Positions 12,877 through 30,900 of a stretch of DNA of 64,000 bases are shown piece by piece. Made by a program: the position numbers and the translations under genes. The notes below the pieces were generated by a model, which was given only the letters and a program-made list of their open reading frames with translations, was not told where the DNA came from and ran no database searches. Every line of letters begins with the position of its first letter. Within the stretch, counting starts at the first letter, position 1. The DNA is taken from the NCBI GenBank assembly GCA_030141605.1, contig JAQGDQ010000093.1, positions 434,001-498,000 on the forward strand. The letters are read 5' to 3'. Source of the DNA: Tubiluchus corallicola (Eukaryota > Priapulida > Priapulimorpha > Priapulimorphida > Tubiluchidae).

Positions 12877-12997
12877 ATGGAGGGGAGCGCAGCAAGAAAT
12901 TGTACATTTAACGGAATGATGGATACACAGGATAACGCTTGTGCAGCTATTAGAGGGCACGCTGGTCTATTCAGACGTATCAGTGTTGTAACTAGAG
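12877..12997 (+). CDS. PFKFB: PFKFB alternative first exon a (with PKA-type motif)
   Basis: The ATG lies 26 bases after the acceptor at 12850. It encodes 40 residues plus one base (phase 1), with donor gtaagt at 12998, and fits the phase of 28455 exactly to give ...VTRG-NSPQL. It contains Arg-Arg-Ile-Ser (Ser about 36), a consensus for cAMP-dependent kinase, placed about as in mammalian liver PFKFB1 (Ser32). The intron to the next exon is about 15.5 kb. Confidence 0.72.
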
Positions 12998-15900
12998 GTA
13001 AGTTTGTCTTTCATTAGAATTAGATTATTTAAAGTTTGCGTGACTTTTTCGACATTCTCATTTCAATCAAACTTTAATTTGATTACGTTTAACTGCATTA
13101 CAATTGTAATGAGCATGTATATCAAAATTTTTTTATTTCATTCGTGATTTACACATAACAAGGTAAAAAATGTACAAGTTTTTTCTTCAGAATAACAAAG
13201 TAGACAAAATCCATTAGTTCTAATTAAGTAATAAATAAAGTGTGACATTTGAAAAACTGTTGTATTAATAAATTATTATTTGTGAGAAATTAAATCTACT
13301 AATGTTGTGGCATGAAATTATAAAATTTAGAGTTAGACTAAATATCTATTTATCTTTTTGACTTATTACACATATCCAAGACATCTGGCACAGAGGCACT
13401 TTAGAGAAAAGGACAAGTCTTTTAGGATGTTGGCTTTAATTTGCTGTTATCACTTAAACTTAGAAAAATAAAACAAACTCTATAAAACATAAAGTCAATG
13501 TATACTATTGTTGCACAGAAATTATCAGGCGTGGTGGTAGCCGCCATTCATTTATAAATTATGACGTAAATTGATGGACTTCGTGACTTTTAGTAACTGC
13601 ATCGTAGCTTTCCGTAAGCGCCTGCTGGTTAAACTAACTCAAACTCATGCAGCTTACCAAAATTTCCTGCAAAAATTTTAGAAAATTACTTATGTAATTT
13701 TTTTGTAAAAATTTTTTGAAGGAAATTGTCAAAGCGCTGAATTTCTTCATTCGATGAATGACGTCATTGGTGGAACAATGGCTCTTCAAAATGGAAGCAC
13801 ACAAGCATGAAATGATCTCAACCCTAAAACGATTTTACTAACTACACAGAGCATTTATTACAATTTTATTACTAAGTCCTTCTAACATTTTTCATGAACA
13901 TTGAAATAAGCCTTATTTCCCAGAAGACTTAGGCTTTCCTTTAAACTCAGCAACCAGGGCCGAATTAAGACCTCAAGAATCCCTAACCACTGAAGAGCTT
14001 ATGGTATTCCCATATACAGTGTTCCCTCACTACTTTGCGGTTCATTTATCGCGGACTCGCTGTTTCGCGGGTTTTGAAAAATATTAATGATAATATTTAT
14101 TGCAGTATTTTCGCTATTTCGCGGGTTTTTGCGGTACTCCATACTAAGTTTTTAAAATTGCATATCTAGGTTTAAGAGTTTAAAACATTTTTATGAACAT
14201 TTAAGTAAAATTTTTTAAAAGGTACATTTACAGTATGGGAACGGTTATTAAGGGAATAGGAAAGGGTTATGTATAAGAGTGTGGGGAGAGTTTATAAAGA
14301 CTTAAAATAATGTATAACTACTAAAATAAGTATAGCGTCCCTGCTTCGCGGAAATCCACTTATCGCAGGTCGGCCTGGAACGGAACACCCGCGATAAGTG
14401 AGGTAACACTGTTTGTGTAATTCAGAATAGAAAGAATACTAAACTGTAAAATGAAATTTCATCTTTCAAAATCAAAAAAGCAGTAAGAATTGTTTTATAG
14501 TAAATGCTATGGCATCAGCTTTATGAAAAAGTAATGCAGATACGAGTCTAAATCTTACCAAGCGACAGCTACTCAGTATTTCTGCCACCAAACATATTCC
14601 GATATGTTTTACTTTTGGGATTTGATTTGATTTTAAAAACTGTGTGGGCCCTTTTCTTTGAGGCTGTACAGCACAAGAAGACCCTCAACTTACATAAAGC
14701 TTATATCACTTACGTACTGCCTTTTTGCATGTTAGACGTGCGTCGGTAGTAGCGCTGTATAAAACATGAAATTTTAAACTTCCGCGATGACCGTTTTGAC
14801 GATAAGACATTTGAAACAAGTTTAATTAATACTGGAGATACTTTGAAAATGTATTAGAGCATTTGTAACGTACTCTTCACTAACTAAGTAAAATTTTAAA
14901 TTACTGTATCTTGTCAATAAGATTACAAAAATTTGTTATCGATTAGTGAGTGGTACACCCTGGACAGCGAGTCAGCGACATTTTACCAATTGACGAAAGC
15001 ATTTTAAATAATTAATAATTTTCTTTTCTAGTTACTTAAGTCTTTGAAGCAGGTAAATGAAATGCTAAGTAATATAACTTTGCATGGAAAGTTTTTTGGG
15101 ACATTGGGCTATAAAGTAATCTAATTTTTTTAAGGCAAGTTTTCTGAAACCTACTTCAAGGTATCCATTTTCTTGTCCTTTAAGCACTTGCTTATTTTGT
15201 TTAATGGTTAAGCCAGGACTGAACGGAAAGTTTACTGTTCTAACACTTTCAGTTAAAGCTTGTGTAACTTACAATAAAGTACATGTTCACAGCTGAACAC
15301 AATATTATACATTGTGTACATTGATACAAGTGCATCAGTTACAGTATTTGCTATGCATAATATGTGCGTACACAGTAATTGCATTATGGTTTTCTAACAG
15401 GTTTGCTCCCATGTGTTGCCTGCTAATGGTCGACAACAATATTTTAATATAAATTTAGAAATTTGAAGGACAAATAAGGACACTCGGCATGATGGATTTA
15501 TTTAAAAGCATTGGAAATTCTATGAATCTGCAGCACTGAAACTTACTTAGCTTTCTGAAAGCCCGCAAAATATCATCGTCTTATTTTTGTCTTGGTTTAG
15601 CATGAGTTTTAAATAGGCATCACAAATGCCTTAGGACTGCGAACAGTGTTTTTTGCCGATTTAAGTTTCATTTTTCAAAATATCAGCTCGGGCTGGTAAT
15701 GCACAAGTGCTTTGGGCATGTGACTTGTGGCTCAGCTTAACTGATGAGCAAAGTTATTTGTGGTACTGTAATTTTGAAAGAGTTTCATTTCAAATTTAAA
15801 GACATGTCAAAAGTAACTCTTTGAGCGTAGTAAAACTATCAATATACAGCTTATATTAGCTGTAGTAAAACTATCAAAGAATCTATTCAATCTATTAGAT

Positions 15901-27900: not shown

Positions 27901-30900
27901 GCTTAGGTTAAATAATAATTACCTCGGATACTCGAATTTTGTTAAACTTTCAAAGATACTTGGTGAATCTACCAGGATTGGCATTGGCACCTTTTGTCAC
28001 ATTCGCATGGCCAACAAATAGTTAGTTTCTGACTGTATATGACGTAGAGTCCATTTTCGTGACGTCACGCCTTTAAGCAGTACCGTAACACTTACGCAAA
28101 CGTGCTCGATGCGCAAGGGAAGATTCCCCCCATTGCACAAACTGCACTTTGTTTCTGACGTAAGCAATAGCTGTGTTCAGTTGCCGTTAATTAACTTTCT
28201 AAGCTAATTATTCAAATGTAAGAAACAGGTGATAGGCAAGAAACAGTATATATTTTGGACAGTAAATTAAAATGAGATTGAGTCTAAACAATCATCTGGT
28301 ATTCCTTTAAATTTTTATACTTTGTTATTTTGTACTGTGCGGTAATTCAAATTTTTGTTGTATTGATATTAAAACTTATATATATATATACGTATTATGA
28401 TCAATGTAGATGTAGGATTTTGATCGCTTCTCTTATTTCAGATTCTTTTTTCAGGTAATTCACCACAATTGGTTCGTGTTCCACATGTTATTGCTATGGT
28501 GGGATTGCCCGCACGGGGCAAGACATACGTTGCCAAAAAGTTGGCACGTTACTTGAACTGGATTGGCGTCAACACGAAGGGTAAAATCATTTGCGTTTCT
28601 TAATTTGAGCTTTTCCTGAATTGTTAAAATCTTGTTATATGGTAACTGTTACAGACTGAATTATGCTTGATTGCTCATTTTATGCGTGACAGTCAGAATT
28701 TGTTCATTCTAAAAATAGATGATTTTTGTCCTATCTTCGACGACCACAGCAGTATCATCACCTAGTAACCAATAGAAAATGACAGCCGATGTGAATGGCC
28801 AAGTGGTGACATGCATGCGCATAGCGACAGAAGTTAAACCATACTAAAGCTGTGCACAGTCCAGCTGGTTTCGTTTGCTGTCCCGATTCTGCATGTTTTA
28901 TCATGTTGTGGGAAGATATATACATGCAAATGTGGCTAAGTCGTTTCTGTCTCGTTTTAGTGGTATTGTTGTCAATGACTTTAATAAGCTAGGTTCCCAG
29001 CACGCCACAGACATCATTGTCGAGTAGGCCGTGGCATCGGAGCTGGCCTGCAGTGTACTGACTTGTGTAAAAGACCTAATAAAAAATTTCATTATTTCAT
29101 TTCAACACTAACAGCGTCCATGAAAATCTGATTGTTAGCAGTTGGATTAAAAAAGAGAATTTTTTAACATTGTTCAGATCTTGCTGTTTTGCTTTGGGGT
29201 ATATTTATTTTCTTGTACGATTTTATTATCGTTACTGCTGATGTCGTCATCATCGTTATCTTCATCATAATACTTCACTTATATCCTTAATCATAGAACT
29301 TATTTCCTTAGTCCACAATGCAAAGTGAGGAAGCACATCCCTCCATGCCATCCAGGTGTCTAGGCCTTTTGTGCGCAGATACGGAAAAGCGACTTTCCAT
29401 ACCTGTAACACGTCAGTCGAGCATCTTACCGGTTTTATAATATATCACTCATGAAACTGTCAGAATATATACTACAATTCGGGATGAGTGGTCAGTCTTT
29501 TCTCTTTTCGAATTTAGAATAAGAACCCAAATTTAAAGGAGGGTAAAAAACGGTTATCTGTAATATTAACCGATTAAATATGTTGACATAAGCCTATCAA
29601 GAATTAAGTTGGGTTTCTAATTTTGGATAAAGTTAACGTTGACCGTATGGTTATGCCTTCTTCTGTTACAAAATGATTCTTTCGTTGTTAAAAATTTTTG
29701 CACTAATATCAAAAACTTAGTACGTCTCATCAGCTGCTATACCCAGAAACCTGTGTATTATTTTGCCTTAAAAGATTTATGTAATGCAAGTATTTCTACT
29801 TATTTGTAGAATTTAATGTCGGGGAGTACCGAAGGCGAATGTTTCAATTCCGTTATGACGGGCACGACTTTTTTGACCCCAAAAACAAGGAAGCTACCAA
29901 AGTGAGAGAGTAAGTATAGCGTTGAATAACAGCTGTTCTTGTAAAGGTCATAGGAAGGTCAGTGCTCCTTATTTAGAGATAAGTTAGCTATTTGAAAACA
30001 GATCGTGATACAGTAAGTCCTCGCTTACCGACGCTAATGCGTTCCAACAAAATGCGACGTTAAGTGAAACAACGCTAAACAAAACCAAAACTTCCATAGA
30101 AAGTAATGTAAAAGAATTGAGATACATTCTAGAGACAAAAATCAATGCTGCTTTAAACATATAAGTTAACGATTCTATGAGTTTTATTCGTATTTCTGCT
30201 GATTAACGTCTTCCTGTTTGCCAGAAACCACCATAGCTACACGTGTTTCTCTTTTGTTAACGTTTAAGCCTTGTCAGCCGTTGAACAATAAACACTGCAG
30301 AATCAAAATCAAGCCATGGGGCGACCTCGAGAATTTTACCTACATAGTTATATATAATCAGGTTGCTACAGCAACAGGTTGCAGCCAAAATTGCTCGTTG
30401 TTCATTTGATTGTTGATACAAGCCGCTTGTAATACAGTAGTAGCGTCAGTAGTCGGTCACGGAGGATGTATAATAATTACACTGTTTACATAACTAGTGC
30501 GTTTTAGAACAGAATAACGCAATAGATGCTGTTTTAATGCATCAAATTAGCTAAATATTTTGTCAATCTAATAAAAATTTGCTGTGAGCAAAGTAAAAAA
30601 AATCGTTGTCAAAGCGAAACGTGCGTCTTTAAGTGAAAAAAGGTGTCAGATGATCGGCATCGTTAAAACAAAACCGTTAAACGGGGAGTCAGAACTTACT
30701 GTTTTGTGTTTTTCATGGAATTATACAGACTTTTTACGTTTAGTGAGATTGCCATGGCAGCACTAGAGGACACTTGCAACTGGTTGGAAAATGGCGGAGA
30801 GGTGGCGATATACGACGCGACAAACACGACGCGAGAGCGACGACAGATGCTTCATGATCTGGTGACCAAGAAGTTTAACTTCAAAATGTTGTTTGTTGAA

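Follow-up and report, generated by a model that had tools for sequence, protein, structure and literature searches.

The question raised by this stretch of DNA, 64,000 nucleotides from the priapulid Tubiluchus corallicola (the window), is whether a PFKFB gene of an animal distant from mammals can, by its choice of promoter, include or omit a site of the kind phosphorylated by protein kinase A (PKA) in the N-terminal tail of its enzyme. In mammals the L and M mRNAs of PFKFB1 differ in their first exon only, with exon 1L encoding 32 residues of a protein that carries Ser32 and exon 1M encoding nine residues and no site, according to the part of PMC4178209 available, and the original prediction had drawn on this comparison correctly. 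A complete gene for a bifunctional PFKFB lies on the plus strand of the window, and at the DNA level there is good support for two alternative first exons, 1a and 1b. On balance we think it probable, from what these exons encode, that promoter choice in this one gene includes or omits a PKA-type site much as in PFKFB1 L and M. The features on which this rests are:

12877..12997, plus strand: first coding exon 1a, 121 nt, 40 residues and a split Gly, phase 1, donor GAG/GTAAGT
12973..12984, plus strand: encodes Arg-Arg-Ile-Ser (residues 33-36, with Val next), which is the one RRx[ST] in isoform a
22097..22187, plus strand: first coding exon 1b, 91 nt, 30 residues and a split Gly, phase 1, donor AAG/GTGAGT
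28455..28580, plus strand: common exon 2, with the kinase P-loop GLPARGKT

The positions predicted for 1a and 1b proved exact, each starting with ATG, ending in phase 1 at a strong donor and joining in frame to the acceptor at 28454/28455, and the joined proteins have 487 (isoform a) and 477 (isoform b) residues. The acceptor side of this junction can be taken as certain from the protein match, because the joined protein is matched over the whole core by PFKFB chains of the PDB (1k6m, E 1.7e-175; 3bif, 8.1e-173). An alternative acceptor at 28441 is in frame for phase-0 donors, none of which qualifies upstream at the thresholds used. The ATG of 1a has G at -3 and at +4. In a rough DNA search the regions of 1a and 1b each matched only themselves, and both exons lie outside the repeats of at least 30 nt found in 12000-28580.

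It is apparent that the two tails differ in the site itself. Arg-Arg-Ile-Ser is encoded by 1a only, as had been predicted, with Ser36 placed five residues ahead of the boundary codon of that exon, and the RRIS-V of this tail is a close fit to the PKA consensus; exon 1b encodes no basic-basic-x-Ser/Thr and its tail has no PKA consensus. Of shuffled 1a peptides, 1.5% had RRx[ST] no more than eight residues from the end and 0.5% had a basic-basic-x-Ser/Thr 5-7 residues before the tripeptide NSP, the latter positions having been chosen post hoc. Both N-terminal tails are probably disordered.

The switch would then work through two promoters about 9 kb apart. Transcription from promoter a would include exon 1a and give the 487-residue enzyme, its tail bearing a strong PKA-type site at Ser36, whilst promoter b would include exon 1b and give the bifunctional enzyme unchanged except for its tail, which is shorter and lacks the site. 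In cells using promoter a, cyclic AMP (cAMP) and PKA could shift the balance of kinase and bisphosphatase and hence the level of fructose-2,6-bisphosphate, whereas cells that rely on promoter b would not respond to this signal. We infer that each promoter is transcribed and that Ser36 is phosphorylated, and by analogy with liver Ser32 the kinase activity would become lower and that of the bisphosphatase higher.

As both domains and their active-site motifs are present, a regulatory tail at the N-terminus would act on a true bifunctional enzyme, going by its predicted activity. The nine common coding exons (28455-37747) all have GT donors and AG acceptors and form one continuous frame. The 6PF2K kinase domain (PF01591, 2.8e-86) covers residues 48-266 and includes the P-loop, and the histidine-phosphatase domain (PF00300, His_Phos_1, 5.1e-41) covers residues 269-451, in which RHGE and HQAV can be read. 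The motifs include KRTIQ, which we take to hold the Arg that corresponds to Ser302 of PFKFB3. In PFKFB3 that serine replaces the Arg of the bisphosphatase site and bisphosphatase activity is low, as stated in the accessible part of PMC6131595. A C-terminal RRxS of the PFKFB2/3 kind is absent from the protein encoded in the window. The remaining common exons are:

29810..29909, plus strand: common exon 3
30729..30942, plus strand: common exon 4
31343..31526, plus strand: common exon 5
32554..32699, plus strand: common exon 6, with the bisphosphatase RHGE
35013..35159, plus strand: common exon 7, with KRTIQS, Arg being kept where PFKFB3 has Ser
35971..36205, plus strand: common exon 8
36982..37109, plus strand: common exon 9
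37684..37747, plus strand: common last coding exon, stop at 37745-37747

How often such first exons would arise by chance was judged with a generic donor matrix. At the first thresholds (at least 20 codons from an ATG, donor of at least 5, phase 1) exactly two frames qualify in the 16,455 bases upstream, and these are 1a and 1b, whilst 150 Markov resamples of the region gave a mean of 0.25 qualifying frames, with at least two such frames in 3.3% of resamples and one encoding basic-basic-x-Ser/Thr in 2%. The same scan gave no frames in phases 0 and 2 and one on the minus strand. Only three plus-strand donors in 11900-28449 score 6.5 or more (12997, 22187 and 22703). With a stricter donor threshold of 7.5, set post hoc, two sets of 150 resamples had means of 0 (25 codons) and 0.007 (30 codons).

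It might be supposed that this gene has just one true first exon, most likely 1b, and that the second frame arose by chance or belongs as a first exon to something else. Codon usage learned from 25 kinase frames of the same genome does favour 1b, as 2 of 128 null frames have a codon score as good as that of 1b and 6 of 70 one as good as that of 1a, and the combined donor-plus-codon score of 1b, 15.8, is also the better and exceeds the maximum of 10.5 seen in 100 resamples. However, 1a owns one of the three strong donors in 16.5 kb, in the fitting phase and with a good start context; its combined score, 8.0 from an inner ATG, exceeds the 95th percentile of the second-best resampled frame (5.6), and its codon score resembles that of exon 2 (6/63), which is certain. 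For exons 3, 7 and 9 the corresponding counts are 1/117, 0/34 and 0/58. The codon test is weak at this exon length and does not decide the status of 1a, and with all of this a single first exon seems improbable.

The likeness of the window gene to PFKFB1 goes beyond the presence of a site. If liver PFKFB1 is taken to have 471 residues, the boundary codon here, at -14 from the Met of MVGLPARG in a gapless count, and the boundary in mammals are no more than about a codon apart. In both cases a single PFKFB gene has alternative first coding exons and a common exon 2 that begins shortly before the P-loop, and one tail carries a PKA-type serine near the boundary and the other does not (PMC4178209, PMC6131595, both in the parts available). 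The tails differ in length, with 40 and 30 residues here as against 32 and 9. No similarity of the first exons to vertebrate tails was found, alignments to the PDB PFKFB chains starting at residue 39 or later, in a PDB set that holds no PFKFB1 tail.

PFKFB2 offers a further comparison. Its S29 is given as a phosphorylated residue in a list that terms it C-terminal, in the portion of PMC6131595 at hand. KKCS29 lies seven residues before NSP and RRIS36 here six residues before it, but the PFKFB2 site is at -14 from the Met of MIGLPARG and the site here at -19 (both gapless), and NSP is 7 residues from this Met in PFKFB2 and 13 here; NSP may be a chance anchor for comparing the spacing. At the column of S29, PFKFB3 has a Ser that lacks the basic pair, and in PFKFB4 the residue is Gln.

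A second PFKFB gene of the same genome allows the boundary to be compared within the species, exon matches being found on two contigs, with the second gene on the complement strand of contig C1461 (mammals have four PFKFB genes; PMC4178209, available part), a number that suits an invertebrate. Among other families sought in the genome, PF00115 (COX1) gave no match, nor did PF00379 (arthropod cuticle) and PF14830 (mollusc haemocyanin), although these two also missed their controls and so carry no weight. Exon 2 of this paralogue has a phase-1 boundary and first residues (13) identical to those of the window gene, and a boundary so shared probably predates the duplication that gave the two genes. 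The best first exon in the 30.7 kb scanned upstream is the complement of C1461:986394-986571, with an ATG at C1461:986571, an in-frame stop before it and A at -3. Its score of 20-21 exceeds the highest value among resamples, 10.6, none of 26 null frames matches its codon score, and the matrix rates its two possible phase-1 donors as weak (2.3 and 2.5). It cannot be aligned to 1a or 1b, but it encodes RKMT, 3 or 8 residues before NSP depending on the donor, which looks like a weaker PKA-type site with Thr and an acidic next residue. Of three first exons accepted in this species, two thus have basic-basic-x-Ser/Thr near the boundary, a recurrence that is a lead only, with few cases.

The paralogue differs from the window gene in having no convincing second first exon in the same 30.7 kb and an alternative last exon instead. 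This last coding exon, C1461:973134-973258 on the complement strand (ADTPYLRASLHTLYQLTPTAFGCIVKEIEFDIDRRDDHNML followed by a stop), lies upstream of the ordinary one (971722-971853) and may give an isoform with a shortened C-terminus; the window gene gave no match to such an exon. At about C1461:978838-978888 (complement) lies an additional piece of 51 nt, in frame and with splice sites of its own, that resembles the start of exon 5 (EVKLSCPDYKEWSPKPA) and is possibly a cassette or duplicated exon. An early match upstream of the paralogue, ISGYAGGIKRRIS, was discarded, there being no start codon in its frame.

A number of points weigh against a promoter-controlled switch. No homologue of 1a, 1b or 1c (a third candidate considered below) was found in the 30.7 kb that precede exon 2 of the paralogue, the best E-values being 1.8, 0.10 and 0.24 over the 49.5 kb searched. 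The minimal pattern basic-x-x-Ser occurs at the junction in both isoforms, as RGNS in a and, by reading, KGNS in b, so isoform b may not be wholly blind to a PKA signal. RRx[ST] arises in 6.4% of shuffled 1a peptides, and this is one species. It is therefore conceivable that both first exons are real and the RRIS incidental, with exon choice serving only expression by tissue or stage and the two tails equal in regulation. There is a model for this in PFKFB2, which is transcribed from several promoters into mRNAs that differ solely in their 5' non-coding part, the promoters not being reported to change the N-terminus in the part of PMC4178209 available. The tails of PFKFB3 and PFKFB4 likewise carry no such site. 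On the other side, RRIS-V comes close to the PKA consensus, stands near the junction and has nearly the PFKFB2 spacing to NSP, and the tail of the paralogue has RKMT near its own boundary. An incidental RRIS is, we think, rather unlikely, and a regulated site chosen by promoter is preferred.

The start of 1b and the scan itself also give grounds for caution. The ATG of 1b has T at -3 and is overlapped by an upstream open reading frame (uORF) whose codons are themselves coding-like, 1 of 70 null frames scoring as well, and with its stop overlapping the start as ATGA isoform b could depend on reinitiation. A cAMP response element (CRE)-type palindrome before 1b is weak; it sits in a GC-rich stretch (0.47-0.50 against 0.36), but this stretch is not unique in the window, other parts of which reach equal or higher GC, and its CpG ratio is ordinary at 0.84-0.92 (mean 0.73, s.d. 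0.28). For the best resampled frame the 95th percentile is 8.6, a value that the combined score of 1a does not reach. Six of the eight downstream donors of this gene score 1.5-4.9 and the scan would miss most of them. The features near the two starts are:

21978..22100, plus strand: uORF of 40 codons, its stop overlapping the ATG of 1b
21932..21939, plus strand: palindrome of CRE type without mismatch, TGACGTCA, some 160 nt before the ATG of 1b
12616..12665, plus strand: possible upstream uORF exon of isoform a, with intron 12666-12850 and acceptor GCAG/12851; weak

There are six TGACGTCA sites in the window, at least two of them in intron repeats. Within 14100-24100 the first intron contains several direct and inverted copies of one diverged repeat; the arms of repeat I1 are 136 nt long and 90% complementary, and two copies have TGACGTCA.

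As the donors of the gene are mostly weak, weaker first exons could have escaped the scan, and it is possible, though we would not expect it, that further first or intermediate exons with short tails or weak donors, or non-coding ones, are unrecognised here, which would be compatible with a switch between 1a and 1b. Mammalian exon 1M codes for only nine residues (PMC4178209, available part). The possible exon at 12616-12665 points the same way; spliced on it would give a uORF of 20 residues, and its codon score is slightly negative. Lowering the length to at least 6 codons with a donor of at least 7 still returned only 1a and 1b, although such a scan is blind to weak donors; relaxed to 8 codons and a donor of 0.5 the thresholds admit many frames, 14 in all. 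In the 21.9 kb upstream of position 12000 no further first exon was found at 20 codons and a donor of 6, weaker ones not being sought.

The original prediction had allowed for a third first exon, 1c (26474..26612, plus strand), and this part of it did not stand. The frame does join formally to 28455, but the donor GCC/GTAGGT scores -1.7, 6 of 43 null frames have a codon score as good and no other support was found, so 1c was rejected as a coding first exon; a nearby alternative donor at 26616 is, by reading, out of phase. The two exons 1a and 1b remain, and with them the preferred reading of a PKA-type site that is included or omitted by promoter.

A wider proposal is that PFKFB genes of animals have long had a site for basophilic kinases just before a conserved boundary of the first exon, that this site was kept whilst the first exons otherwise turned over, and that its inclusion or omission by promoter choice is older than the vertebrates. 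The genes concerned would be mammalian PFKFB1 and PFKFB2 together with 1a and the paralogue here. The spacing from site to NSP, near that of PFKFB2, keeps an origin before the vertebrates alive and S29 of PFKFB2 raises the rating of an old site, which we hold to be tentative and somewhat doubtful. Drosophila Pfrx, also a PFKFB gene of an invertebrate, has several transcripts with different 5' ends. Isoforms are not described in the part of a paper on Pfrx that was available (PMC3329464), and alternative PFKFB first exons in invertebrates are not described in the titles and abstract openings covered, which include few subscription journals.

Elsewhere in the window, a minus-strand gene with a 1741-codon open frame (43297-53344), convergent with PFKFB, resembles RSBN1, the one exon searched giving no match in Pfam. 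A 393-codon open frame at 61849-63027 has a reverse transcriptase domain (PF00078, 4.3e-24) and appears to be a retroelement fragment.

In mammals, liver and muscle control fructose-2,6-bisphosphate differently through a choice of promoter, by which a single serine is gained or lost. If the switch proposed here is true, a distant animal would have the same layout at the same boundary, and it could then be asked whether this is an ancestral logic or a repeated solution, the latter of which would be eased by an old intron lying just before the kinase domain.

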